NCBI GenBank assembly: GCA_016933965.1
Contig: JAFGTS010000023.1
Coordinates: 1-64,000 of the forward strand
DNA: 64,000 nt
Reading direction: 5' to 3'
From: Deltaproteobacteria bacterium
GTDB lineage: Bacteria; Desulfobacterota; Syntrophia; Syntrophales; UBA2210
This document shows positions 45,365 through 59,895 of the stretch, one piece after another. Numbering within the stretch: position 1 is the first letter of the stretch; every line of letters starts with the position of its first letter. The notes under the pieces were generated by a model. It was given only the letters and a program-made list of their open reading frames with translations. It was not told where the DNA came from and ran no database searches. Made by a program: the position numbers and the translations under genes.

Positions 45365-46390
45365 ATGGGAAAAAGGAGGTATGCAGTACTCATTATAGTG
45401 GCGATCGTAGCAATGTCGATGGTTTTTGCCGGTCCCTCCTTTGCGGCGAAGAAACAGTTCTTCGCCATTGTGACCGGTGGAACCGGTGGAACCTACTACC
45501 CGCTCGGGGGGGTCCTGGCCCAGGCATTGTCAAACAAGGTCCCTGATATCATCATTACCGCCCAGTCGGGAAATGCGTCCGTGGCGAACTGTAACCTGAT
45601 ACGGGAGCACCAGGTCGAATCCGCTTTCGTACAGAACAATGTCGCCTTTGCAGCCTTTACGGGAACAGCCCAGTTCGACGGGAACCCCGTCAAGAATCTC
45701 CGGGCGATCGCGTCGCTCTATCCTGAAACGATCCAGATCGTCGCCCGGGCCGACGCGGGCATAAAAGACATAATGGACATCAAGGGTACGAGGCTGGTGC
45801 CCGGTGACAGAGGAAGCGGCACGGAAGTCGACTGCCTGAACGTGCTCAAGGGTGTCGGGCTGGCCTATGAAGATTTCTCGAATGTCGACTGGCTCAGTTT
45901 CACCGGAGCATCGCAGCGTCTGAAAGACAAACAGGCCGACGTGGCGTTCATCACGGCCGGCTGGCCGACGGCAGCCATCACCGAGCTGGCCACGACGTCA
46001 GACATCGTTATGGTACCCCTGGATGATGCCACCATAGCGAAGCTGGTTAAGATGTTCCCCTTCTATGCCAAGGTTGTGATCCCGGCCGGAACGTACAAGG
46101 GTGTTGATGTCGACACGCCGGCAATTACAACCATGGCCCAGTGGGTTGTCGATGCGCAGGTGCCGGAATCCATCGTGTACGACCTGACCCGGGCCCTCTG
46201 GGAACCGGGGAAATTCGTGCTCCGCAAGGCCGGTACTGATGCCGCCGATGCACCGAGCGGCGCGGAACTGATGGCCGCCGCCCATGCCAAGGGCAAGGAC
46301 GTTACACTGGCCACCGCTCTTGACGGTGTGGCAATTCCGCTGCACCCCGGAGCAATGAAGTATTACAAGGAAAAAGGCCTGATCAAGTAG
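45365..46390 (+). CDS. TRAP transporter solute-binding protein, TAXI family
   Basis: A 341-residue periplasmic protein. A signal peptide (about 1-27, ending SFA) precedes the TAXI fold, whose hallmark GGTGGTYYPLGGVLAQ lies near 38-53. SGNASVANCNLIREHQVESAFVQNN and LVPGDRGSGTEVDCLNVL are further family stretches. TAXI proteins bind small acids, often glutamate-like or aromatic, and hand them to a fused TRAP permease. It heads an operon with a DUF1850 gene, the fused permease and a DapB-like dehydrogenase. Confidence 0.94.
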   Translation: MGKRRYAVLIIVAIVAMSMVFAGPSFAAKKQFFAIVTGGTGGTYYPLGGVLAQALSNKVPDIIITAQSGNASVANCNLIREHQVESAFVQNNVAFAAFTGTAQFDGNPVKNLRAIASLYPETIQIVARADAGIKDIMDIKGTRLVPGDRGSGTEVDCLNVLKGVGLAYEDFSNVDWLSFTGASQRLKDKQADVAFITAGWPTAAITELATTSDIVMVPLDDATIAKLVKMFPFYAKVVIPAGTYKGVDVDTPAITTMAQWVVDAQVPESIVYDLTRALWEPGKFVLRKAGTDAADAPSGAELMAAAHAKGKDVTLATALDGVAIPLHPGAMKYYKEKGLIK

Positions 46391-46404
46391 CAGCGGGAAG
46401 CTCC

Positions 46405-46983
46405 ATGCATACAGAGAAAACTGGGCACCGAGCCCTTCGGTGCCCAGTTTGTATCATGAAGGGGGTTGTCCTCCTTGTTCTTGTCGCCTTTGCCGCCGTC
46501 TCCTTCATACCCGTGTCCGTTCTTGAAATACGGGCGGAAAAAACGGGGAAAACGGTGTTTGCCCGGCTCGTATCTCCGGGAGACGCCGTCTGCGTGGGCT
46601 ATACCCACTCCGTTGAGTTCTGCCCTGTTCGGGATTACTTTACGATAGACGAAGAACTTCGTTTTGTGCTCCGCGAAACGACCTTCTCTTCCTGCAATAC
46701 GGGACTTCCCGTATCGCTGGCGGAAGGAGAAACCTTCCATGTCGAAGAGGGGTGCTTTCGCATCGCTCACATGAACAGGGTCGAACCCGCCCTTTCATTG
46801 TGGGTCGACGAAAAATACGGTAATACGCTTGAGATCGAAGGTGATCGCCCGATCGAACTTCCCGCCCTGGCGGGGAATGCCCTGTTGTCGATAGCGGTTA
46901 AAAAAATGTCACTTGCCGCCTATGCCCGCCTGCGGGCGGGAATCTATGTGTTTGCAAAAGGAATCGAGCGTTATGGATACTGA
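46405..46983 (+). CDS. DUF1850 protein of the TAXI TRAP operon
   Basis: A 192-residue protein, or 175 if it starts at the ATG at 46456. It has one N-terminal membrane segment or signal peptide (VVLLVLVAFAAVSF) and a beta-rich domain with VGYTHSVEFCPVRDYF, the DUF1850 hallmark, found with TAXI transporters. Its role is unknown; an accessory part of the transporter is inferred. GGGAAG stands four bases before 46405 while 46456 has no ribosome-binding site, so I list the longer form. In that case a strong hairpin at 46418-46450 is within the coding region. It overlaps the permease gene by 11 bases. Confidence 0.78.
   Translation: MHTEKTGHRALRCPVCIMKGVVLLVLVAFAAVSFIPVSVLEIRAEKTGKTVFARLVSPGDAVCVGYTHSVEFCPVRDYFTIDEELRFVLRETTFSSCNTGLPVSLAEGETFHVEEGCFRIAHMNRVEPALSLWVDEKYGNTLEIEGDRPIELPALAGNALLSIAVKKMSLAAYARLRAGIYVFAKGIERYGY
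46418..46450 (+). other. 14-bp hairpin after the TAXI gene
   Basis: AAACTGGGCACCGA (46418-46431) pairs with TCGGTGCCCAGTTT (46437-46450) around GCCCT. Its position, 27 bases after the binding-protein stop, mirrors the hairpin in the ABC importer operon at 31669. A short T-run could give partial termination; mRNA stabilisation is also possible. Confidence 0.75.
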
Positions 46984-49693
46984 AAAAAAGGTGATGCCTC
47001 AACCGGACACAGACGACGAGATACAGCAGATAGCGAAATACGATCCTGAATTCCGCTTTCGCCAGCTCTCCGGTTTTGCCATGCGGCTTGCCTTTGTGAT
47101 GACGCTGATCCTGTCCATATTTCATATCTATACCGCCGGATTCGGGGTCCTGCAGGAATGGCGGCACCGGGCCTTCCACCTCGCTTTCGTCCTTCCCCTG
47201 GTCTTCTTTTACTATTCGATCAGGAAGGAGGGGACGGATACGGGGAAACATCTCGTCTATGATATTCTGTACGGTATTTTCGGAAGTGCCCTCTTTGCGT
47301 CCATCTTTCGCGAGGTCCTGGATCTGAATCCCTTCACCACAACTCTCATGGGATGCCTGGTTTTTTTCTTCATATTCTATTTCAAGAGACGTGTCTTTCT
47401 GAAACACCATCTGTTCGTCTACCTGGATTTCGTTATTTTCACCGGCATGGGAGCTGCCCTTGTCTATGGTGGATACCTGTCGGCACACTTCATTCATTTC
47501 TCGGAGGTGTTCCGGGACCCGAATCCGACACTTCTCTTCTGGAGCGTTCTTCTCTTTGGTATCTTTGTGACCATCACCCTGCTTTTCTTCACGCAATGGG
47601 CACGGTCTTTCTATGCCATTATCCGACGGGGGAAATTACGGTATGATCCGGATCACCTGCCCTATTTCGATGCCGTCTATGCCCTGCTGGCCTGCGCCGT
47701 TTCACTCTACATATTTCTCGAGTTCAACAGTCTTGTTTTTCGTGCCGGACTCCCCCTTCCGACCGATCTGATCGTGGGGGGATTCGCCATACTCCTGGTG
47801 CTTGAGGGGGCGCGCCGCAGCATCGGTCCTCCCCTGCCGATCATTGCCATAATCGTTCTCATCAACTGTTATCTGGGGCCCTATTTTCTCGATGTTCCGG
47901 GACTTTCCTTTTTCGCCCACCGGGGATACTCAATTGACCGCATCATCGAACACATGTATCTCGGTACCGAGGGTATCTTCGGCATTCCCCTCGGCGTGGT
48001 CGCCACCTTCGTGTTTCACTTTGTCCTCTTCGGCATCTTCATATCAAAGACGGGACTGGGCCAGCTTTTTATCGATCTCGCCATGGCCCTCGCCGGCGGA
48101 ACCGTCGGAGGGCCTGCCAAGGTTTCCGTCATCTCCAGTGGTTTTCTCGGTTCCATAAACGGAAGTTCGATCGCCAATACGGTCACGACGGGTGCCTTTA
48201 CCATTCCCCTCATGAAGCGCGTCGGGTACGCCCCCCGCTTTGCCGGCGCCGTGGAAGCAGCGGCCTCCACGGGAGGACAGTTGATGCCGCCGATCATGGG
48301 AGCGGCCGCCTTCATCATGGCCGAGTTCCTGTCAATACCATATATCAAGATTGCCGCCGCCGCCATTATTCCCTCATTCCTGCATTTTTTCGCCGTTGGA
48401 ACCATGGTGCATTTCGAGGCCCTGAAGCAGGGGTTGATGGGTCTTCCCAAGGAGGCCCTGCCGCGGGTCAGCGAGGTCCTGAAAGAACGGGGGCTCCTGG
48501 TCATGCCGCTCCTGGTGATCGTTTTTCTGCTTATTTCGGGGAGCAGTCCCTTCCTTGCCGCCTTCTGGGGCATTATCTATTCCGTTGCCGTCGGGCAGAT
48601 CCATCGACGAACCGTGCCATTTCTGATCCCGGTCCTGCTGTCCGTCCCCTCCGTTCTTGTGCGCCTGGACCCCTTCCATTATTCACCGCTGGTCATGGTC
48701 ATATGGGCGGGGCTCGGCCTTTCCGGGTTCCTGTATCTTTTCCGAAAAACAGACCTCATGACCTGGTTGCTGGGTGTGCTTGCGACGGCGCTCCTGAGCG
48801 TGCTGCTCCTGTGCGGGATCGAAGCGTCGCTCTGTGCCTTCTGGGCGAATATGGCGGTCATCGGCGCCGGTGTCTTTTACAGCGACAGCAGGATGAAAAT
48901 TCCCGACATTCTCAACACATTGGAACTGGGAACAAAGAACGCCCTCGCCATCGGCGCGGCCTGTGCCTGCGTGGGGTTCATCGTCGGTGCGACCACCCTG
49001 ACGGGGCTGGGATTGAAATTCGCCGCGGCCGTCATTGAACTTGCCCGCGGGGTGGCCATCTTTATCAACAGTATCGATATCCTGCATCTCATCACCCTTC
49101 AGGGGACGACCCTGTTCTTTACCCTCGTGTTCACGGCCATCTCCTGCTTTATCCTGGGTATGGGTATCCCCACGACGGCCCAGTACATCATCGCCTCGAT
49201 GATCGCGGCACCGGCTCTTCTGGAATGGGGAATACACCCCCTCGTGTCCCACATGTTCGTTCTTTTTTACGCCGTTCTCGCCGACGTGACACCGCCGGTC
49301 GCCCTGGCGGCTTACGCGGCATCGGGTATCTCTGGTGGTGATCCGTTCCGGACCGGCTTTACGGCCTTCAGCCTTTCCCTGGCGAAGGTCTATGTACCGT
49401 TTGCCTTCGTCTACTCACCCATCATCCTGTGGCTTCCCCGCCTGCTCGATCCATCGGCACCCTTTGACTTCACGCACTTCGCATTTATCGTCGGTACGCT
49501 GGTTCTCGGTGTTATCGCCCTGGGCGCAACGATCATCGGGTATTTCAGGGATAAATCGACGAGACCGGAACGACTCATAACCGGTATCGCGACGATCTGC
49601 CTCTTTTCAAACGCACCCAACCTCAATATTGCCGGCTTCTGTATGCTTGCGCTCGTCTATCTCCTGCAGAGGCGCAGAAAGAAAAAGAACTAA
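46973..49693 (+). CDS. TRAP transporter fused permease (4TM plus 12TM)
   Basis: A 906-residue inner-membrane carrier that joins the small (DctQ-like) and large (DctM-like) TRAP subunits. The N-terminal third holds the small-subunit helices plus linker helices. GSINGSSIANTVTTGAFTIPLMKRVGYAPRFAGAVEAAASTGGQLMPPIMGAAAF contains the DctM sodium and substrate signature (about 395-450), and LGMGIPTTAQYIIASMIAAPAL is the second repeat. It uses a sodium gradient with the TAXI protein. The ATG at 46973 overlaps the DUF1850 stop. Confidence 0.94.
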   Translation: MDTEKKVMPQPDTDDEIQQIAKYDPEFRFRQLSGFAMRLAFVMTLILSIFHIYTAGFGVLQEWRHRAFHLAFVLPLVFFYYSIRKEGTDTGKHLVYDILYGIFGSALFASIFREVLDLNPFTTTLMGCLVFFFIFYFKRRVFLKHHLFVYLDFVIFTGMGAALVYGGYLSAHFIHFSEVFRDPNPTLLFWSVLLFGIFVTITLLFFTQWARSFYAIIRRGKLRYDPDHLPYFDAVYALLACAVSLYIFLEFNSLVFRAGLPLPTDLIVGGFAILLVLEGARRSIGPPLPIIAIIVLINCYLGPYFLDVPGLSFFAHRGYSIDRIIEHMYLGTEGIFGIPLGVVATFVFHFVLFGIFISKTGLGQLFIDLAMALAGGTVGGPAKVSVISSGFLGSINGSSIANTVTTGAFTIPLMKRVGYAPRFAGAVEAAASTGGQLMPPIMGAAAFIMAEFLSIPYIKIAAAAIIPSFLHFFAVGTMVHFEALKQGLMGLPKEALPRVSEVLKERGLLVMPLLVIVFLLISGSSPFLAAFWGIIYSVAVGQIHRRTVPFLIPVLLSVPSVLVRLDPFHYSPLVMVIWAGLGLSGFLYLFRKTDLMTWLLGVLATALLSVLLLCGIEASLCAFWANMAVIGAGVFYSDSRMKIPDILNTLELGTKNALAIGAACACVGFIVGATTLTGLGLKFAAAVIELARGVAIFINSIDILHLITLQGTTLFFTLVFTAISCFILGMGIPTTAQYIIASMIAAPALLEWGIHPLVSHMFVLFYAVLADVTPPVALAAYAASGISGGDPFRTGFTAFSLSLAKVYVPFAFVYSPIILWLPRLLDPSAPFDFTHFAFIVGTLVLGVIALGATIIGYFRDKSTRPERLITGIATICLFSNAPNLNIAGFCMLALVYLLQRRRKKKN

Positions 49694-49708
49694 AGGAGTA
49701 CAGATACC

Positions 49709-50713
49709 ATGAAAAACAGAAAGATACGGGTTATCCATTACGGCCTGGGACCCATCGGCATTGAAACGGCGCGGTATGTTCTGACGAAGGAATCCATGGA
49801 AATCGTCGGTGCCGTGGACATATCCAAGGACATGGTCGGCAGGGACCTGGCCGACCTGCTCGGTACCGGCGAGCCTTCGGGGGTCATCGTGACCGACAAC
49901 GCGAGCAATCTGCTGTCACGGGTGCCGGCCGACGTGGTGATCCATACGGCCGGCTCACGGATCAAAAATATTTTTCCACAGCTCGTGGAAATCATTGAAA
50001 CAGGAAAGAACATCGTTTCCTCTGCGGAAGAACTGCTCTTTCCCTCGGAAGAAAATGTCGGTCTTGCTGACCAGCTCAATGAAATGGCTACGAATCGCGG
50101 TGCAACGATCCTGGCGACGGGCGTGAACCCCGGTTTCGTCATGGACGCCCTTCCCCTTTTCATGACCGGGGCCTGTCAGGATGTTAAAATTATCCGCGTG
50201 GAGCGTATTGTGGACGCGGCAACCCGCCGCTATCCCCTGCAGAAGAAGGTCGGTGCGGGCATGACTCCGGAGGTCTTCCGGGCCAAGGTGCAGGAAAAGG
50301 CAATGGGTCATGTAGGGCTGACGGAATCACTGCGACTTGTCGCCTTTCACACGAACATGGAGCTTGATGAGATCAGGGAGACCATCGATCCCGTCATGAC
50401 GGAAAAGGCCGTAAAGACCGATTATTTTGAATTGCAGCCCGGAGACATTGCGGGCATAAAAAATGTCGCCCTGGGCATGAGAGGCGGCGAAGCGGTGATC
50501 ACTCTCGATCTGAGGATGTATATCGGGGCCGAGGACCCGCACGATGCCGTATATATCGACGGCACACCGCCGGTGAATCTCCATATCGACGGGGGTATCG
50601 CCGGCGACAAGGCCACGGCGGCCATACTGGTAAATTCCATACCGGCCGTTATCAATTCCCGTCCCGGACTCGTCACGGTGAAGGACCTTCCCAGTCCCCA
50701 CTTTGAGCCATAG
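49709..50713 (+). CDS. dihydrodipicolinate reductase-like NAD(P)-dependent dehydrogenase
   Basis: A 334-residue protein with a Rossmann N-terminus (VIHYGLGPIGIETARYV, about 8-24) and a DapB-like catalytic half with TGVNPGFVMDALP (about 142-154). It is longer than DapB (about 270) and most resembles 2,4-diaminopentanoate dehydrogenase of ornithine fermentation. The reaction may be oxidative deamination of an amino acid derivative or reduction of an imine. It is 15 bases after the TRAP permease gene, so it should act on the imported compound or its product. Confidence 0.82.
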   Translation: MKNRKIRVIHYGLGPIGIETARYVLTKESMEIVGAVDISKDMVGRDLADLLGTGEPSGVIVTDNASNLLSRVPADVVIHTAGSRIKNIFPQLVEIIETGKNIVSSAEELLFPSEENVGLADQLNEMATNRGATILATGVNPGFVMDALPLFMTGACQDVKIIRVERIVDAATRRYPLQKKVGAGMTPEVFRAKVQEKAMGHVGLTESLRLVAFHTNMELDEIRETIDPVMTEKAVKTDYFELQPGDIAGIKNVALGMRGGEAVITLDLRMYIGAEDPHDAVYIDGTPPVNLHIDGGIAGDKATAAILVNSIPAVINSRPGLVTVKDLPSPHFEP

Positions 50714-51739: not shown

Positions 51740-52885
51740 TCACGGGCTTTCCCGGTCGACCCCGGCAAGAACTGATTCACCGAGCTTCCGCCCTTTTGTT
51801 TCCGCCGCCCGCCCTGCGACAGCGAGAAGGGCGTTAAGGTCCTCCGCCATGTCCCGCAGTTCCGCGCTGTCCGAACGGGGAAACTCGTTCCTGAATGCTG
51901 CTATCCGTTCCTGGAACGTCCGGGCCGCCGTCCTGAAGAAAAGCGTGAGTGAGAGCCGTTCTCCGGCGTTCCTCCACCCGTCGAGCAGCCGCGCTGCCTC
52001 CCGCGCGAGGATCCTGAGGGAATCAATGTAATATCGCAATTCGCCGAGCGGTCCCTTCGCCCTGTCCATATCCGCCGCCTCTATTGCCAATACCCCCGCG
52101 AGGAGTTTCAATTGGTATTCCATGGCGCCCAGGACCGGCCCCATGGTGAGAATGTCTTCATACTCCCTGAGAGGAACGACCATGTCCTCGTAGGCGGTAC
52201 CTGCAGGTCCCAGGACGGCGTCGGCGGTAACCGGGCAGTCATCGAGTATGATACCGCCGTGTGGTGACGGGCGCAGGAAGGGTAGATCAAGAGGGGGTGT
52301 CGGCGAGAGTCCCGGTGTTTCCCGGGGAACGAGGAATGCCGTGCATCGGTTTTTTCCGCCCTCCACGGCTGTGACGGCGATGATGATGAAAAGATCGGCG
52401 ATGGGCCCGTTCGTCAGGTAGGTTTTCTCACCGGTTATTACGAAGCCTTCTTTATGCCGTCGAGCCTTCGTTTTCAGATGTTTCGGGTGTGCGCCGGTTC
52501 CCGGTTCCGAGACCGCCAGACAGGCCGTGGCGCCGCCCCGGGCGAGGCCGGGGAGTAGCAGTTCCTTCTTCCCCTCGTCGGCAACGCGGGCGATGATGCT
52601 CCCCGCCGTTATCTGATGTATCAGCCAGGATACGGCGATCCCGAGATTGTGTCCCTCCCGGACCAGGGCTTCCCCGGCACGCGAAACAGCCTGCAAGGAA
52701 CCTCCCATGCCCCCGAATCGCTCCGGGACCGAGAGACCGAGAAGACCCTCTTCGCCCATCGCCTTCCAGACAGAGAAGGGGAACTCCACACTCCCGCGGA
52801 GGTCCCTGTCGGCGATGTACGCGGCGGCGAACCGTGAAAACATCTTCTCCATATCGTGAGACCGGTCGCTGGGCCTGTCGTTCAT
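51740..52885 (-). CDS. divergent acyl-CoA dehydrogenase-family protein
   Basis: A 381-residue flavoprotein of the acyl-CoA dehydrogenase fold. LGLSVPERFGGMGGSL (about 47-62) and ACLAVSEPGTGAHPKHLKTKA (about 122-142) bind FAD, and GEKTYLTNGPIADLFIII is typical. The C-terminal half lacks the usual QIFGGxGY and YEG(T/S) segments that supply the catalytic Glu, so its reaction may differ. I chose the ATG at 52885, which has GGAGGG three bases upstream. It is divergent from the FGGY kinase gene. Confidence 0.82.
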   Translation of the reverse strand: MNDRPSDRSHDMEKMFSRFAAAYIADRDLRGSVEFPFSVWKAMGEEGLLGLSVPERFGGMGGSLQAVSRAGEALVREGHNLGIAVSWLIHQITAGSIIARVADEGKKELLLPGLARGGATACLAVSEPGTGAHPKHLKTKARRHKEGFVITGEKTYLTNGPIADLFIIIAVTAVEGGKNRCTAFLVPRETPGLSPTPPLDLPFLRPSPHGGIILDDCPVTADAVLGPAGTAYEDMVVPLREYEDILTMGPVLGAMEYQLKLLAGVLAIEAADMDRAKGPLGELRYYIDSLRILAREAARLLDGWRNAGERLSLTLFFRTAARTFQERIAAFRNEFPRSDSAELRDMAEDLNALLAVAGRAAETKGRKLGESVLAGVDRESP

Positions 52886-53059
52886 CGTCCCTCCTTGTGT
52901 CATTCAGTTCCAGTGAATGGTCCGACGACCGCTATGTGCCACAGTTGTTCCCGTTTGTCAAAGCCTGTCGATCGCGATTTCCCATGAGTCGTTTCATCGT
53001 TGCATGACGGGGCGATGAGTGGTACTCTCTTCGGCACACGCATAAAAGGAGGAAATACC

Positions 53060-54580
53060 ATGAACGTGACGGGAAGGGGCACCGGTTCGTGTATCGCCGT
53101 CCTTGATGTGGGAAAGACCAATCAGAAACTGCTGATCTATGACGATTCGCTTACTGTTATCGACTCAAGCTACGAAACCTTTCAGGATCATGATGTTGAC
53201 GGCATCCAGTGCGAGGGTGTGACCGCCATTGCCGACTGGTTTCAGGAAACCCTCGGCGTGATGGGCCGGCGGCATGACATCGGGGCGATATCGGTCACGT
53301 CGCACGGAGGAGCATTCGTGTGTCTTGATGAAGAGGGTAACATAACACTGCCGGTCGTGTCATATACCTACGATCCCGGTGAAGAGTTCCACAGGAGGTT
53401 TTTGCACGTCTGCGGAGACGCCCGCACACTGCAACGCGAGACGGCGACGCCCGATTATCCCGGACTAGGCTGCCTCGGAAAGGGGATATACTTCGCTAAG
53501 GAGCATTTCAAGGAAGAATTTCAAAAGACCAGAGCCATCCTGAACCTGCCCCAGTATTTCGGCTATGTGCTGACGGGGGAAAAGGCCGTTGAACATACCT
53601 ATCTGGGATGTACCACCTTCCTCTGGAATTTCGATGCCATGGAGTGGTCTCCCGTGGTTGATGCCCTGGGGATCAGGGATGTCCTGCCCGCGAGGATCGC
53701 GCGTCCCTGGGATGTGCTGGGAAGGCTGAGCCCCGCCGTGGCCCGGAAAACGGGTCTCAGCGAGAATGTCCGGGTGACCGTGGGAATTCACGATTCAAAC
53801 TCGGCGCTCCTACCCTATCTGATCACCAAGAAGGATCGTCCCTTTGTTCTCAATTCAACGGGGACCTTCTGCGTCGAGATGCATCCGGCGGAGCGGGTGT
53901 ACTTCAGCGATGAAGAACTAGGGAAATTTGTCTTTTACAATCTGGATGCCTTCTCACATCCCGTCAAGACGGCCCTCTTTCTGGGCGGCATGGAATTCGA
54001 CATTTATACGGGGATCCTGGCCGGCGTTCATGGCGGCACGCCCTTCCCGGCTTTCCGTGAGGACCTCTACCGCGGTGTTCTGTCGGACCGGAAGCTCTTT
54101 ATCATTCCCGGCGGGGTGACGGGGGGCGGCATGTTCCCTGACTCGGAGGCCCGCATCATCGAGAACGACATCGTCCATACCTTTGACGAGGTGATCGCGG
54201 GCGTGAAACAGCCGGCCTTCTTCGGGGATTTCGAACAGGCCTACGCGGTTCTCAACATTTCGATCGCTATTGAGACGCAGGTCGCCATGGAGCGGGTGGG
54301 ACTGACGGAGGGGATGGAGATCTTCATCGAAGGAGGGTTCAGAAAGAACGATTCCTATCTGGCGCTGCTCTCGGCCATGAATCCCCGGTCGAGATTGTTT
54401 CTGACGAACCTTGACGAGGCGACGTCCTTCGGCGCCGCGATCCTGGGCAAATGCGCCCTGGAGAACACGTCGCCCGATGCCCTGGGCCACCTCTTTGAAA
54501 TAGAGACCCAGGAAATCGCGTGGCGGGAACTTCCGGAGATCGATGCCTATCGGGAGGCCTTTCTCGGTTTTACCGGGTAG
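53060..54580 (+). CDS. FGGY-family carbohydrate kinase
   Basis: A 506-residue sugar kinase that transfers phosphate from ATP to a sugar, polyol or sugar acid. The N-terminal VLDVGKTNQKLLIYD (about 15-29) is the phosphate-1 motif. The catalytic base is Asp245 in VGIHDSNSALLPY, and GGFRKNDSYLALLSA (about 423-437) is the adenosine motif. The active-site loop is closer to rhamnulokinase and fuculokinase than to glycerol kinase, but substrate specificity cannot be read from it. AAAGGAGG precedes the ATG at 53060. It heads a likely unit with a RuBisCO-like protein and a phosphatase-family protein. Confidence 0.88.
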   Translation: MNVTGRGTGSCIAVLDVGKTNQKLLIYDDSLTVIDSSYETFQDHDVDGIQCEGVTAIADWFQETLGVMGRRHDIGAISVTSHGGAFVCLDEEGNITLPVVSYTYDPGEEFHRRFLHVCGDARTLQRETATPDYPGLGCLGKGIYFAKEHFKEEFQKTRAILNLPQYFGYVLTGEKAVEHTYLGCTTFLWNFDAMEWSPVVDALGIRDVLPARIARPWDVLGRLSPAVARKTGLSENVRVTVGIHDSNSALLPYLITKKDRPFVLNSTGTFCVEMHPAERVYFSDEELGKFVFYNLDAFSHPVKTALFLGGMEFDIYTGILAGVHGGTPFPAFREDLYRGVLSDRKLFIIPGGVTGGGMFPDSEARIIENDIVHTFDEVIAGVKQPAFFGDFEQAYAVLNISIAIETQVAMERVGLTEGMEIFIEGGFRKNDSYLALLSAMNPRSRLFLTNLDEATSFGAAILGKCALENTSPDALGHLFEIETQEIAWRELPEIDAYREAFLGFTG

Positions 54581-54583
54581 CTG

Positions 54584-54611
54584 ATGGATCGTGATTCGTG
54601 ATCCGGGATTT
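54584..54611 (-). repeat. 7-bp tandem repeat, four units
   Basis: On the minus strand the units are AAATCCC, GGATCAC, GAATCAC and GATCCAT, the same 7-base family as 7150-7205, including an identical AAATCCC unit followed by GGATC. It lies directly after the FGGY kinase gene stop. Confidence 0.7.
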
Positions 54612-54750
54612 GAAAGTAACAGATCCGCATTTTCTCAGGTGTTGAAGCCGAACTGTTAAGCCTGTCAGAAAAGTTCGGGGCAGGCGTAACAGAGATTTAT
54701 AAGAAGAGACCGAAAAGATAGAACAAAAACAGGAATAAAGGAGGACATCA

Positions 54751-56064
54751 ATGATAGGGGATTATGAAAGCGAGCCGCGGGCCCTTCCCGAAGGCATCGA
54801 CATGGAGAACCACGTCATCGCCACCTACTACTCGGCGTGGCCGGCAGACTGGAACCTTGACCAGATGGCACCCATACTGTCAATCGAGCAGTCCACGGGG
54901 ACCTTTGAACCGATGCCCGGTGAGACGCCGGAGCTGCGAAGAAATCACCTGGCCAAGGTGATTGGCGTCTATGAGGCTCCCTATTACGAGCACAGCATAG
55001 AACCGGAAATTACCGAACGGCAGTACATAATCCAGATAGCCTTTCCGGCGGTCAACATCGAGAATCAGCTTCCCATGCTGATGACGACCTGCGTGGGGAA
55101 CATCAGTCTCGCGAAAAAACTGAAGCTGCTGGAACTGAGAATACCAAAGGTCATCCTTGACGGATACCAGGGACCGAAATTCGGCATAGAGGGCGTGTAC
55201 GAACTTCTGAACGTCGAGCTCGGCTCCAGGCCCCTGCTGAACAACATGATAAAGCCCTGCACGGGATATTCCGTGGAGGTCGGTGCGGAACTGTTCTACC
55301 AGGCGGCCCTGGGCGGCGCCGATGTCATCAAGGATGACGAGCTGATCGCGGACATGGCGTTCAATCATGCCGTCGACCGGGTCACGGCATACATGGAAAA
55401 GGAACGGAAGGTCTTCGAGGAAACGGGCGAGCACACGCTCTATGCCGTCAATGTGACGGGGCGGCTTCCGCACATGCTGGAAACGGCAAAGCGCGTCATC
55501 GAGGCCGGCGGGAACTGTCTCATGGTGAATTACATTGCCGTGGGGCCGGAAGCGATGCGGGCGCTGGCGGAAGATCCCGACATCAACGTTCCCATCCTGG
55601 CCCACCAGGATGTGGCGGGCGCCTACTTCATGTCGCCCTTTAACGGGGTTTCTTCGCCGATCATGATGGGAAAGATACCGCGCCTCGCCGGGGCGGATAT
55701 CATCGCCTTTCCCTTTGCTCTCGGCGGCAAGGCGACCTACCTTCACGAACGCTATTCGACGGTCGCGCGCTGTCTCACCTATCCCTTCGGCGCCCTCAAG
55801 CCGACCATGCCCATGCCCGGCGGCGGCCTGACCCCGGCAAACGTGCCCGAAGCGGTGCGGGAGCACGGGATCAATTTCATTATCGGGGCCGGCGGGGGTA
55901 TTCACGGTCATCCGCAGGGACCGGTCGCGGGCGCGCGGGCCTTCCGGCAGGCGATCGACGCCGTCATGAAGGGGATCCCTGTTGAGGAATATGCGAGTGA
56001 TCATGAAGAATTGTCCGTCGCCCTGGGGAAGTGGCCGAAGTTCACCATTTTCAAAACGGAGTAA
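54751..56064 (+). CDS. RuBisCO-like protein (form IV type)
   Basis: A 437-residue member of the RuBisCO large-chain superfamily. Metal and carbamate residues are kept: KDDE with Lys194, Asp196 and Glu197; Lys168 of the IIKPKLG region; Glu46 in EQSTGTF; His285; and GGG in GAGGGIHG. Several residues needed for carboxylation are changed: the second Lys of that region is Cys170, Arg295 is Gln, and His327 is Ser by my alignment. GK308 in MMGKIPRLAGAD resembles the loop of the MtnW/enolase group. It is probably an enolase or decarboxylase for a phosphorylated sugar or sugar acid. AAAGGAGG precedes the ATG. Confidence 0.9.
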   Translation: MIGDYESEPRALPEGIDMENHVIATYYSAWPADWNLDQMAPILSIEQSTGTFEPMPGETPELRRNHLAKVIGVYEAPYYEHSIEPEITERQYIIQIAFPAVNIENQLPMLMTTCVGNISLAKKLKLLELRIPKVILDGYQGPKFGIEGVYELLNVELGSRPLLNNMIKPCTGYSVEVGAELFYQAALGGADVIKDDELIADMAFNHAVDRVTAYMEKERKVFEETGEHTLYAVNVTGRLPHMLETAKRVIEAGGNCLMVNYIAVGPEAMRALAEDPDINVPILAHQDVAGAYFMSPFNGVSSPIMMGKIPRLAGADIIAFPFALGGKATYLHERYSTVARCLTYPFGALKPTMPMPGGGLTPANVPEAVREHGINFIIGAGGGIHGHPQGPVAGARAFRQAIDAVMKGIPVEEYASDHEELSVALGKWPKFTIFKTE

Positions 56065-56139
56065 GGTGAAGGATCACGTTGATCGAACAAACCGAGCGCC
56101 GCGTTTCGGTACGGGCGGCGAGTGCAGTGGAGGAAGCGG

Positions 56140-56859
56140 GTGAGCACGGTTCATTTTGTCCGTCACGGCCAGGGAACGCTTGACGGGGGCCGGTACGACC
56201 GCCTGTCGGAGCTTGGGGCCCGACAGGCGGAAATGCTGGGAAAATTCTGGGCGGCGCGGAAGGTGCCGCTTGATCATGTCTATTCGGGTACCCAGGATCG
56301 GCACCGCCAGACGGCATCGATCGTGGCGGACCATTATCGCAGGGCCGGGCTGGTGTTTCCTCCGGTCATGTCCGATGAGCGGTTCAATGAGATCGATTCC
56401 CTCAATATCCTGGAAGAACTCATACCGCTCCTCGCGAAGGAAAACGGGCGTTTCACCGAGCTGATGGAACGGACCAGGAAGGCCCTGCAGGTGAACGCCG
56501 CCGATAAGATACTCCTCTTCGACCGGCTGATGAAAATGGTCATGAACGCCTGGATGGAGGGAACCTGTGCCTCTTACGGGGGCATGTCCTGGGAAGAATA
56601 TCGCTCGCGGGTGCTCGATACGCACCGGGACCTGGTACGCTGCGGTGATGGATCGCGCGTTGCCGTCTTCACATCGGGCAACCCCATCGGCATCTATATC
56701 GGAAAGGCCCTCGAGCTGACCGACGCGAAGATGCTCCAGGTGGTCCATACCCTTTTCAATACGAACGTCACGTCCTTTGTTCTTCGGGATTCAACCGTCA
56801 CCCTCACGACCATGAATGACGTCTCCCACCTCGACAAGGAATTGGTCACCCAGAAATAG
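56140..56859 (+). CDS. histidine phosphatase superfamily protein with altered second His
   Basis: A 239-residue protein of the phosphoglycerate-mutase-like fold. FVRHGQGTL (Arg8, His9) holds the phosphorylated His, and SGTQDRHRQTASIV matches the second Arg region. The usual late His (in SHG or THG) is replaced by VFTSGN with Ser179-Gly180, so full phosphatase activity is uncertain, or the role is filled by another residue. A GTG start at 56140 follows GGAGG at 56129-56133. It is 75 bases after the RuBisCO-like gene and may be in the same transcript. Confidence 0.82.
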   Translation: MSTVHFVRHGQGTLDGGRYDRLSELGARQAEMLGKFWAARKVPLDHVYSGTQDRHRQTASIVADHYRRAGLVFPPVMSDERFNEIDSLNILEELIPLLAKENGRFTELMERTRKALQVNAADKILLFDRLMKMVMNAWMEGTCASYGGMSWEEYRSRVLDTHRDLVRCGDGSRVAVFTSGNPIGIYIGKALELTDAKMLQVVHTLFNTNVTSFVLRDSTVTLTTMNDVSHLDKELVTQK

Positions 56860-56976: not shown

Positions 56977-59895
56977 ATGACGGAGACACAGGGGTTCGAA
57001 CTTCTCAAGGAACGTGATATTCCCGAGATCGGGACACGGGCACGCCATTACCGGCATACGAAGACCGGCGCCGAGGTGTTGTCCCTGGAGAACGATGACG
57101 AAAACAAGGTCTTCGGCATCACCTTCAGGACTCCTCCGTCCGATTCAACGGGCGTGGCCCACATCCTTGAACATTCCGTCCTGTGCGGTTCCCGGAAATA
57201 TCCCGTCAAGGAACCATTCGTTGAGATCCTGAAAGGTTCCCTTCAAACCTTTCTGAATGCCTTCACGTATCCGGACAAGACCTGTTACCCCGTGGCCAGT
57301 CAGAACATCCGGGACTTTTACAACCTGATCGACGTCTATCTCGACGCCGTGTTCTACCCCCGCATCGAGCCCCATGTGTTCAAGCAGGAAGGCTGGCACT
57401 ATGATCTGGAAGAAAAAGACCTGCCGCTTCAATTCAAAGGGGTGGTGTTCAATGAGATGAAAGGCGCGTATTCTTCGCCGGAACGGTTGCTGGGAGAGTA
57501 TTCCCAGCAGTCCCTCTTTCCCGATACCCCCTACGGACTGGATTCAGGTGGCGATCCCTCACGAATTCCCGAACTTACCTTTGATGCCTTTCAGGACTTT
57601 CACCGGCGGTTCTATCACCCGTCGAACGCCCTGATCTTTTTTCATGGTGATGACGATCCCGAAGAACGCCTGCGACTGGTGAATAAATACCTGAAGGATT
57701 TTGAAAAGAGCGAGACGGATTCATCGATCGCCGTTCAACGTGACTTCGGTGCACCACGGAAAATGGAGCGCTCCTATGCATCGGGACCGGATGAGACCGG
57801 AAGGAATCGGGGCATGGTGACCGTCAACTGGCTGCTGACGGAAACGCCGGACCTGGAAATGAACATGGCCCTTCATATCCTCTCGTACATCCTTCTGGGG
57901 ACCCCCGGTTCACCCCTGCGCAAGGCGCTGATCGACTCAGGCCTGGGTGAGGACCTTGCCGGAGGCGGCCTTGAGGATGAGTTGCAGCAGCTCTATTTTT
58001 CGATCGGACTGAAGGGGATCGACCCCGGCAGGGCCATCGAGGTCGAGAAGCTCATTCTCGATACGTTGGCGTCCCTGGTTCGGAACGGGATCGAACCGGA
58101 TGCGGTTGAAGCCGCCATCAATACGACGGAATTCACCCTGCGCGAGAACAATACGGGAAGCCATCCCCGCGGCCTCATCCTGATGCTCAGGTCGCTGACG
58201 ACCTGGCTTCACGGGGCCGACCCGATCGCGCCCCTGGCCTTTGAGACGCCCCTTGAAGCGATCAAAAACGGGATTTCGAGGGAACGGGGGTTCTTTGAGC
58301 GTATCCTGTCCCGCTGGTTCATTGATAACAACCATCGGACCACGGTTATCCTGCGGCCCGATCCCGATCTGGAAGAACGGGAGAGCCGGCGCGAACGGGA
58401 GGTGCTGGCGGGAGCGAAGGAGCGATTATCAGCGGTCGACGTTGACAGGCTCGTAAAGGACACGAAGGAGCTGAAGAACATCCAGGCCACGCCGGACACA
58501 CCGGAAGCGTTGTCCACCATTCCCATGCTGCGCCTTTCGGACCTGGAGCTGAGGAACAAGGTAATACCACTGGAAATATCCGACCGGCAAGGCATTCCTC
58601 TTCTGTACCATGATCTTTCCACCGGCGGGATCCTCTATCTCGATATTGGATTTTCGCTCCGCGCGCTGCCGGAAGCATACCTGCCCTTCGTTCCCCTTTT
58701 CAGCAGGGCCTTGTTCGAGATGGGGACCGAGAAGGAGGATTTTGTGCAGCTTTCCCGGCGGATCGATCGAAAGACCGGCGGCATCTACGCATCGTCACTT
58801 ACCTCGCCGGTTCGAAATTCACCGGAAACGGAGTCCCGCCTGTTCATCAGGGGAAAAGCCGTATGTGAGCGTGTCGACGATATGCTCGATATTGTCAGGG
58901 ATGTTCTTTTTTCGATCAAACTGGATGACCGGGACCGGTTCAGGCAGATGGTGCTCGAAGAAAAGGCCCGCCAGGAACATGCCGTCGTCCCGGCGGGTCA
59001 TCAGTTCGTGGGGATACGGCTGCACTCGCACTTCGGAACGGCCGGATGGGTGGGGGAGCAGATGGCCGGGATCAGCTATCTCTCCTTTCTCCGTGATCTT
59101 GCCGGGCGTGTTGAGACGGACTGGCCTTCAATCCTGGCCGTGCTCACCGATATGCTTCACCTCAGCGTGAACCGGGCAGGCATGATAGTGAACGCGACCG
59201 TTGACGGTAAGGAGTGGACCCGCCTGGAGCCGTCACTGGCCCGTTTCATGAAAGATATGCCGGACAGGGACCTTCCGGCGGCGTCCTGGGTCCCGCAACC
59301 CCCCGATCCCTTCGAGGCGATGGTCGTCCCCTCGCAGATCAACTATGTAGGAAAAGGATACAATCTCTATTCCCTCGGGTACAAGTATCACGGGTCCGTG
59401 GGCGTCATCACCCGGTATCTGAGAAATTCCTGGCTCTGGGACATGGTGCGCGTTCAGGGAGGGGCCTATGGCGCTTTCTGTACCTTCGACCGGCTCTCCG
59501 GCGACCTTCTGTTCCTTTCCTACCGGGACCCGAACGTGAAAAAGACCATTGATGCCTTTGATGGGGCTGCCGGATATCTGCGGGACCTGCACCTGTCCGA
59601 CGGAGAGTTGACAAAAGGCATCATCGGGACCATCGGTAATATCGATACCTACTTGTTTCCCGATGCGAAAGGATACACGTCGATGGTGCGCCACCTGGTA
59701 GGAAGTACCGAGGAAGAGCGCCAGCGGACGCGGGAAGAGGTGCTCTCCACCACTGCGTCCGATTTCAGGACCTTTGCCGACGTTCTTGAGCAGGTGGCAG
59801 CGGCGGGGCTCGTCAAGGTCCTCGGTTCAAAGGAAGCCCTGCAGAAAGGGGCGGAGGAAAGCGGGATCCCCTTTCATATAATCTCAGTTCTGTGA
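56977..59895 (+). CDS. M16 metalloprotease, presequence-protease (PreP/Cym1) type
   Basis: A 972-residue zinc protease of the M16C group. The inverted zinc motif HILEH has His62, Glu65 and His66, and Glu160 in NEMKGAYSSPE is the third ligand. The two halves close over a peptide. PreP-type enzymes degrade peptides of up to about 65 residues. No signal peptide, so it is cytosolic. It has its own start with a GGGGG-type site and no tight link to its neighbours. The size is normal for the group. Confidence 0.93.
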   Translation: MTETQGFELLKERDIPEIGTRARHYRHTKTGAEVLSLENDDENKVFGITFRTPPSDSTGVAHILEHSVLCGSRKYPVKEPFVEILKGSLQTFLNAFTYPDKTCYPVASQNIRDFYNLIDVYLDAVFYPRIEPHVFKQEGWHYDLEEKDLPLQFKGVVFNEMKGAYSSPERLLGEYSQQSLFPDTPYGLDSGGDPSRIPELTFDAFQDFHRRFYHPSNALIFFHGDDDPEERLRLVNKYLKDFEKSETDSSIAVQRDFGAPRKMERSYASGPDETGRNRGMVTVNWLLTETPDLEMNMALHILSYILLGTPGSPLRKALIDSGLGEDLAGGGLEDELQQLYFSIGLKGIDPGRAIEVEKLILDTLASLVRNGIEPDAVEAAINTTEFTLRENNTGSHPRGLILMLRSLTTWLHGADPIAPLAFETPLEAIKNGISRERGFFERILSRWFIDNNHRTTVILRPDPDLEERESRREREVLAGAKERLSAVDVDRLVKDTKELKNIQATPDTPEALSTIPMLRLSDLELRNKVIPLEISDRQGIPLLYHDLSTGGILYLDIGFSLRALPEAYLPFVPLFSRALFEMGTEKEDFVQLSRRIDRKTGGIYASSLTSPVRNSPETESRLFIRGKAVCERVDDMLDIVRDVLFSIKLDDRDRFRQMVLEEKARQEHAVVPAGHQFVGIRLHSHFGTAGWVGEQMAGISYLSFLRDLAGRVETDWPSILAVLTDMLHLSVNRAGMIVNATVDGKEWTRLEPSLARFMKDMPDRDLPAASWVPQPPDPFEAMVVPSQINYVGKGYNLYSLGYKYHGSVGVITRYLRNSWLWDMVRVQGGAYGAFCTFDRLSGDLLFLSYRDPNVKKTIDAFDGAAGYLRDLHLSDGELTKGIIGTIGNIDTYLFPDAKGYTSMVRHLVGSTEEERQRTREEVLSTTASDFRTFADVLEQVAAAGLVKVLGSKEALQKGAEESGIPFHIISVL

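Follow-up and report, generated by a model that had tools for sequence, protein, structure and literature searches.

To our knowledge, very few functions of form IV RuBisCOs have been described. In Bacillus, MtnW (YkrW; 2,3-diketo-5-methylthiopentyl-1-phosphate enolase) operates with MtnK and MtnX, and the final step of the standard methylthioadenosine (MTA) salvage pathway needs O2. OiaX, the 3-oxo-isoapionate 4-phosphate decarboxylase, is encoded next to OiaK, a sugar-acid-type kinase of the DUF1537 family. The DeepYkr RuBisCO-like protein (RLP) of Rhodospirillum rubrum and Rhodopseudomonas palustris, from a form IV branch near YkrW, is a 5-methylthioribulose-1-phosphate isomerase that acts on a ketose 1-phosphate without O2; its partner is a cupin, with MtnP and MtnA upstream and no FGGY kinase (PMC5893883). 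Salvage of 5-deoxyribose by DrdK, DrdI and DrdA uses an MtnK-like kinase and a class-II aldolase on a deoxypentose phosphate, and involves no RLP (PMC6079011).

The window analysed here is a stretch of 64,000 nucleotides (contig JAFGTS010000023.1, positions 1 to 64,000) from a bacterium related to the Syntrophaceae. As the initial annotation had described, open reading frames for an FGGY-family sugar kinase of the FGGY_C_2 type (53060..54580), a form IV RLP (54751..56064) and a histidine-phosphatase superfamily protein (HP; 56122..56859) follow one another on the + strand, separated by 170 and 57 bp, and all score above their domain cut-offs. The kinase scored 58.7 bits for FGGY_N (PF00370; cut-off 28.8) and 66 bits for FGGY_C_2 (PF21546; cut-off 27), and the RLP 153.9 bits for RuBisCO_large (PF00016; cut-off 30.1) and 25 bits for RuBisCO_large_N (PF02788; cut-off 20.7). 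HP scored 64.9 bits for His_Phos_1 (PF00300; cut-off 21.7) and carries the RHG motif, as in branch 1 of its superfamily. The RLP is the sole RuBisCO-superfamily gene found across the 2.85-Mb genome.

With RuBisCO domains above cut-off and K177, R295 and H327 lost, the RLP falls in form IV; a bona fide RuBisCO of forms I-III was ruled out by the C, Q and A found at these positions. Among named families MtnW scored highest, at 335.2 against a cut-off of 409 (NF007095) and 296.9 against 513.6 (TIGR03332), and the AlphaFold2 model (pLDDT 92.1, pTM 0.91) superposed on MtnW (2zvi) with a Z score of 49.3 and an rmsd of 2.0 over 382 aligned residues, making MtnW the nearest named family by both profile and fold. 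In the RuBisCO-superfamily tree, the window RLP was placed inside a well-supported clade (50 rows, support 99/97) that lies near MtnW, yet outside MtnW, OiaX and true RuBisCO. The MtnW rows formed a separate group (100/100), and this, the scores below cut-off and the N found at the RuBisCO N123 position ruled out the window RLP as an MtnW. An RLP fused to a cupin-like region (L210), presumed to represent DeepYkr and the only such sequence in the tree, was not placed within the clade and sat on a long branch of uncertain position; a search of the PDB with L024, as a bridge to the Photo and DeepYkr structures, gave no match at threshold. Members of the clade occur in Desulfobacterota, Actinomycetota, Chloroflexota, Bacillota and several archaeal phyla, and it is apparently a large, uncharacterised branch across many anaerobic bacteria and archaea. 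A search of open-access literature yielded no paper on an RLP linked to an FGGY kinase, xylulokinase or sugar kinase, or to apionate.

Residues of the RLP were aligned to RuBisCO numbering in an active-site table. On the N-terminal phosphate side, E46, T51 and F52 (54886..54906) correspond to E60, T65 and W66, the last being replaced by F. K168-P169-C170 (55252..55260) retains K175 and has C for K177, K194-D195-D196-E197 (55330..55341) provides the metal and carbamate site (K201, D203, E204), H285-Q286 (55603..55608) keeps H294 and loses R295 to Q, and G326-K327 (55726..55731) is the loop-6 Gly-Lys with K334. In all, E60, T65, N123, K175, K201, D203, E204, H294, K334 and G381/G403/G404 are retained, and K177, R295, H298 and H327 are lost. 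Form III RuBisCO of archaea has the fold (Z 45-46 to 2cwx/2d69), the metal site, K175 and K334 in common with the window RLP, which differs in lacking the four lost residues. The MtnW references carry their base lysine at position 123, where the window RLP has N117; unlike MtnW, it also keeps E60 and K334, and in the clade the RuBisCO active site is better preserved than in MtnW. Since the P1 phosphate side is kept and the P2 side lost, the residues point to a mono-phosphorylated substrate, as for MtnW. The kinase-RLP-phosphatase logic is likewise that of MtnK-MtnW-MtnX.

Of the 53 well-flanked clade loci, 48, from several bacterial phyla and archaea, encoded an FGGY kinase no more than 4 kb from the RLP (46 on the same strand); after removal of RLPs more than 85% alike, the count was 31 of 34. 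Certain archaeal members had no kinase within 4 kb. This association and an active site suited to a mono-phosphorylated substrate support the earlier proposal that the kinase feeds the RLP, which probably rearranges the sugar phosphate made by its neighbour. Its further expectation of a conserved kinase-RLP-phosphatase order held for the first two genes and failed for the full trio. The third partner was instead a class-III aminotransferase (23 loci) or a saccharopine-dehydrogenase-like protein (21), never both, with neither in nine. Their mutual exclusion was significant (Fisher p = 4.5e-8; 8.4e-5 after dereplication; median p = 0.031 for phylogeny-aware pairs) and is a sign of an amine/carbonyl step in the clade's pathway, which the initial annotation had not predicted.

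The window is a derived variant within this clade. Its RLP shares the tree position and has an FGGY kinase directly upstream, though this kinase comes from a different subfamily and is about 17-20% identical to the clade's usual partner, and neither an aminotransferase nor a saccharopine-dehydrogenase-like gene lies beside the window genes. The amine enzymes of the relatives and the unusual kinase subfamily are not visible from the window sequence alone. No clear orthologue was found in the window genome for the usual kinase (best 26% identity), for one of the two aminotransferase types (best 39%) or for the saccharopine-dehydrogenase-like partner (best 34%), and the pathway here may therefore differ from that of the clade. 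The idea that the genome retains the usual kinase, aminotransferase or aldolase at another place was rejected on these values, the aldolase reaching 38% over part of its length. An upstream DapDH-like gene was not adopted as the amine enzyme, its syntenic block also existing without an RLP. The kinase itself has N- and C-terminal FGGY domains and, in the alignment, the catalytic Asp (D245) and the ATP-site glycines of an FGGY carbohydrate kinase. Its model (pLDDT 77.4) matched the FGGY kinase 3h6e with a Z score of 34.5 and an rmsd of 4.0 over 444 aligned residues, and L-fuculose and L-rhamnulose kinases were also among its nearest folds. Fuculose and rhamnulose kinases form 1-phosphates.

On balance we favour, as the best explanation, a two-step unit of kinase and RLP acting on a mono-phosphorylated ketose, with the amine enzyme belonging to the pathway in relatives and the kinase having been swapped in the window lineage. 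For the chemistry and the direction of flux we infer the following. The FGGY kinase would phosphorylate a ketose-like compound at a terminal hydroxyl. Using Mg2+ bound at carbamylated K194, and K168 for its base, the RLP would enolise the product next to its carbonyl, yielding an isomer or an enol(one); decarboxylation is another possible output. In relatives, the class-III aminotransferase or saccharopine-dehydrogenase-like protein may contribute an amine-to-carbonyl step, or the reverse, to this pathway. An FGGY_C_2 kinase would have taken the place of the usual one in the lineage of the window, the amine step being lost or encoded elsewhere, and HP, we infer, may remove phosphate later or may be a mere neighbour. 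More tentatively, the clade may represent an undescribed O2-independent pathway: an FGGY kinase would phosphorylate a ketose that has been deaminated or is yet to be aminated, and an RLP would then rearrange it, applying nearly the whole of RuBisCO chemistry to a substrate with a single phosphate. The window would be a branch with a swapped kinase and an acquired or retained HP-family third step. The kinase fixed beside the RLP and the mutually exclusive amine enzymes narrow the search for the substrate and make the function directly testable, and the clade bears on the roles of RuBisCO ancestors before carbon fixation.

The third member proposed in the initial annotation received weak and ambiguous support, and it is rather unlikely that the full trio is a single pathway in which HP, as a genuine third enzyme, dephosphorylates the RLP product. 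The exact trio was seen only in the window and in G039/L025, where the order is the same and identities to the window are 81% (RLP), 60% (kinase) and 44% (HP). The G039 trio contig matches the composition of its own genome, which differs from that of the window: its GC content is 0.418, and its tetranucleotide correlation is 0.73-0.82 with other contigs of that genome and 0.24 with the window. Misbinning from a window-like genome was rejected on these grounds, in a test where C5, one of the contigs compared, consisted wholly of N. No close HP was found in the other searched genomes of the G039 family, and phosphatases of other families adjoin the RLP elsewhere in the clade, both of which would fit a genuine third enzyme. 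Against this, no clade locus examined beyond these two has HP beside the RLP. Membership of HP in the unit is doubtful, because same-family genomes without the pair hold it at the same place and because it lacks the second catalytic His. Its orthologues in G094 (54%) and G096 (53%) sit in the same block without kinase or RLP, and FTSGNPI replaces the distal SHG-type motif in HP and its orthologues, with SSGG/TSGG-type sequences in paralogues. The block comprises a divergent acyl-CoA-dehydrogenase-like gene (51740..52903, - strand) and a gene named by sequence inspection as an M16-type peptidase (56977..59895, + strand), which in pair-less relatives (L140, L141) are syntenic with HP and 3' of it, respectively. 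The former is not thought to belong to the pathway, and the latter is not a member.

A variant of sulfur or 5-deoxyribose salvage, with the RLP acting on 5-methylthioribulose 1-phosphate, 5-deoxyribulose 1-phosphate or a derived diketone between upstream steps encoded elsewhere and a later phosphatase, in parallel to MtnK-MtnW-MtnX, appears unlikely. The reported lack of MTA salvage genes held for the neighbourhood and not for the genome, where MtnA is encoded at G000:C53 (434.6 bits, cut-off 279) and an MTA-phosphorylase-family gene (163 bits, below the cut-off of 274.85) adjoins a saccharopine-dehydrogenase-like paralogue. MtnW being the best-scoring named family also fits such a variant, as do an MtnX-like HAD phosphatase between kinase and RLP in G500 (141.6 bits, cut-off 292), acireductone synthase MtnC downstream in G370 (248, cut-off 128.1) and the class-II aldolase-family genes that some clade operons share with DrdK/DrdI/DrdA. 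However, no MTA-salvage gene adjoins the window RLP, which has neither MtnB/MtnD nor an aldolase alongside and an FGGY kinase rather than MtnK; the MtnW base lysine is replaced by N, an FGGY kinase is needless on the MtnA route, and the O2-dependent last step sits poorly with clade lineages most of which we take to be anaerobes. That the RLP and the kinase are functionally unlinked neighbours is improbable. Orthologues of the kinase stand alone or in sugar-acid-like clusters without an adjoining RLP in G112, G264 and G514, so this subfamily can act without one, and the usual amine partner is missing; yet clade RLPs as a rule have an FGGY kinase gene directly 5' of them, and the same pair recurs in G039. 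We consider it very improbable that the RLP decarboxylates a phosphorylated 3-oxo sugar acid in the manner of OiaX, despite the retained K175 and K334, the RLP-kinase adjacency typical of OiaX loci and the pairing of basal member L225 with an OiaK-like kinase (437.5 bits, cut-off 700). OiaX-like proteins lie outside the clade in the tree, and R295, which the OiaX-like references keep, is lost here. The apiose-type acid route named in the initial annotation found no support as such, with an OiaX score of 174.4 against a cut-off of 700 and a trio that has an FGGY kinase and no DUF1537 kinase.

GC contents of the kinase (0.571), RLP (0.593) and HP (0.587) are near that of the window (0.564), giving no compositional signal of a foreign origin, an idea that was not adopted. 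An in-frame TTG is present upstream of the kinase start, at 53000.

The FGGY kinase (53060-54580), the form IV RuBisCO-like protein (RLP; 54751-56064) and the histidine-phosphatase-family protein (HP; 56122-56859) all scored above the cut-offs of their Pfam families, and their genes lie in this order and direction with gaps of 170 bp (kinase-RLP) and 57 bp (RLP-HP), as the initial annotation had described. The RLP was the single RuBisCO-superfamily gene found in a search of the window's genome, and its closest counterpart from a named organism is from a Syntrophaceae MAG (81%). Its best named profile was MtnW, below the cut-offs (335.2 against 409; 296.9 against 513.6), and its OiaX score was far below threshold (174.4 against 700). 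Placement in a superfamily tree, which had been suggested earlier, was carried out with 75 rows (IQ-TREE, LG+C20). The window RLP fell inside a 50-row clade (support 99/97) apart from MtnW (100/100), OiaX-like proteins and forms I-III, but DeepYkr was represented by L210, a long-branched protein presumed to be of this type by its C-terminal cupin-like region only. Within the clade, the window RLP pairs with that of genome G039 (locus L025; 100/100), and the remaining Desulfobacterota members are their sister. MtnW structures were the best matches to the RLP model (pLDDT 92.1), at Z 47-49, with Photo RLPs next at Z 46-47 and form III RuBisCO after them at Z 45-46.

Partner genes were counted at 53 clade loci with flanks of at least 4 kb upstream and at least 3 kb downstream. 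Conservation of the kinase-RLP neighbourhood in relatives was borne out: the usual FGGY kinase lay within 4 kb of the RLP at 48 loci (same strand in 46), the five exceptions being all archaeal, and at 31 of 34 after RLPs more than 85% alike were dropped. The kinase-RLP pair is genuine, and the clade strongly supports a link between the two genes. A class-III aminotransferase was present at 23 loci, a saccharopine-dehydrogenase-like (SDH-like) gene at 21, neither at 9 and both at none (Fisher p 4.5e-8; 8.4e-5 and 0.017 after dereplication at 85% and 75%; median p 0.031 when only pairs independent on the tree were counted). Locus L099, short-flanked and thus outside this set, carries both enzymes on opposite strands. 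The aminotransferases belong to at least two subfamilies, one GSA-aminomutase-like, and we infer that they and the SDH-like enzymes serve a single amine/carbonyl step. Recurrent in some of the operons are genes for class-II aldolase-family and TetR proteins; G094, from the window's family, has SDH-like, aldolase-like, TetR, kinase and RLP genes in a row. This clade-wide pattern is of greater interest than the trio itself. No paper naming the linkage of FGGY kinase, RLP and amine enzyme was found in the literature searched, whose coverage of relevant papers is incomplete; an actinobacterial RLP of unknown function reported from its gene neighbourhood (PMC7325909) has a different neighbour set.

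RuBisCO binds the first phosphate of its substrate through T65, W66 and G381/G403/G404, and the second through R295 and H327. Numbered as in RuBisCO, the residues retained across the clade are E60, T65, W66 (replaced by F in the window and G039 RLPs), N123, K175, K201, D203, E204, H294, K334, G381, G403 and G404, with loop 6 residues assigned by sequence alignment. Four others are lost in the alignment: K177 is mostly C and H298 mostly A, R295 is mostly M but Q in the window RLP, and H327 is mostly V but A in the window RLP. Unlike MtnW, which has K at 123, G at 60 and S at 334, the clade has N123, E60 and K334. Because R295 and H327 are lost while T65 and G381/G403/G404 are kept, the substrate is probably mono-phosphorylated, and it would be enolised using a carbamate-bound metal.

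The window kinase is of FGGY_C_2 type, with about 17-20% identity to the usual clade kinase, and the nearest folds to its model were 3h6e, L-fuculose kinase and L-rhamnulose kinase. The window's genome had no good orthologue of the usual kinase (best 26%), of one aminotransferase type (best 39%) or of the SDH-like partner (best 34%). Orthologues of the window kinase in G112, G264 and G514 do not adjoin an RLP; the G514 neighbours (dehydratase-like, DapA-like and oxidoreductase-like), judged by inspection of their sequences, resemble sugar-acid catabolism genes.

The proposed three-gene unit held for its first two members, but its third is doubtful, and the trio itself is a lineage-specific variant. 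HP orthologues in G094 (54%) and G096 (53%), both of the window's family, lie between a divergent acyl-CoA-dehydrogenase-like gene and a peptidase, as in the window, without the kinase-RLP pair; since these genomes keep the block, either the window lineage gained the pair at the HP locus or G094 and G096 lost it there. The distal catalytic His is missing from HP and every homologue compared. Against pure coincidence, G039 has the identical order (TetR, kinase, RLP, HP) on a contig whose composition matches its own genome. On balance, we consider it rather doubtful that HP truly belongs to the unit. Phosphatase-type neighbours of RLPs elsewhere are an MtnX-like HAD protein (G500), MtnC (G370) and another HAD protein (L060). 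The absence of methylthioadenosine (MTA) salvage genes, noted initially, is true of the window but not of the genome, which encodes MtnA on contig C53 (434.6 bits, cut-off 279) and, on contig C5 (L242:6650-8553), an MTA-phosphorylase-family gene (163 bits, sub-cut-off) adjoining an SDH-like paralogue. We therefore retain, as an unlikely alternative, a role for the RLP in MTA or 5-deoxyribose salvage with upstream steps encoded elsewhere. Methionine salvage including its RLP step has been reviewed (PMC6302742), 5-deoxyribose salvage proceeds by kinase, isomerase and aldolase (PMC6079011), and DeepYkr is a 5-methylthioribulose-1-phosphate isomerase (PMC5893883).

Other RLP contexts were also observed. 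One basal clade member (L225:5683-10900, G449:C69) has beside it an aminotransferase, TRAP-transporter-like genes and a DUF1537 kinase of OiaK-like type, which scored 437.5 bits against a cut-off of 700. Another (L227:4994-11990, G370:C13) has two FGGY kinases around its RLP, together with MtnC, DUF2148 and a glyoxalase-family protein. Many Syntrophales loci have a conserved protein of about 355 aa after the RLP (L030:9034-10107, L028:11314-12453, L231:7622-8734); it had no Pfam match, is HxxxD-rich and by eye may recall zinc-dependent phospholipase C. At L041:901-3189 and L023:808-3096 it is apparently fused in frame to the RLP in a 762-aa ORF. L235:8935-10584 (G398:C4), like L210, joins an RLP to a C-terminal cupin-like region in a single 549-aa ORF, much as if the RLP and the cupin methylsulfurylase of the DeepYkr pathway had been fused. 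A highly divergent RuBisCO-superfamily protein (L024:1408-2811, G025:C105; 26% over part) has an extremely long branch and no PDB match at E 1e-30. A further RLP lineage of uncertain tree position (L233:7618-10849, G462:C37) is clustered with class-II aldolase-like and Tm-1-like genes. Within the window, 45365-50713 encodes a TAXI-like binding protein, a TRAP fused permease and a 2,4-diaminopentanoate-dehydrogenase-like gene; the latter two and the following genes are syntenic with G094, at a place with no RLP.
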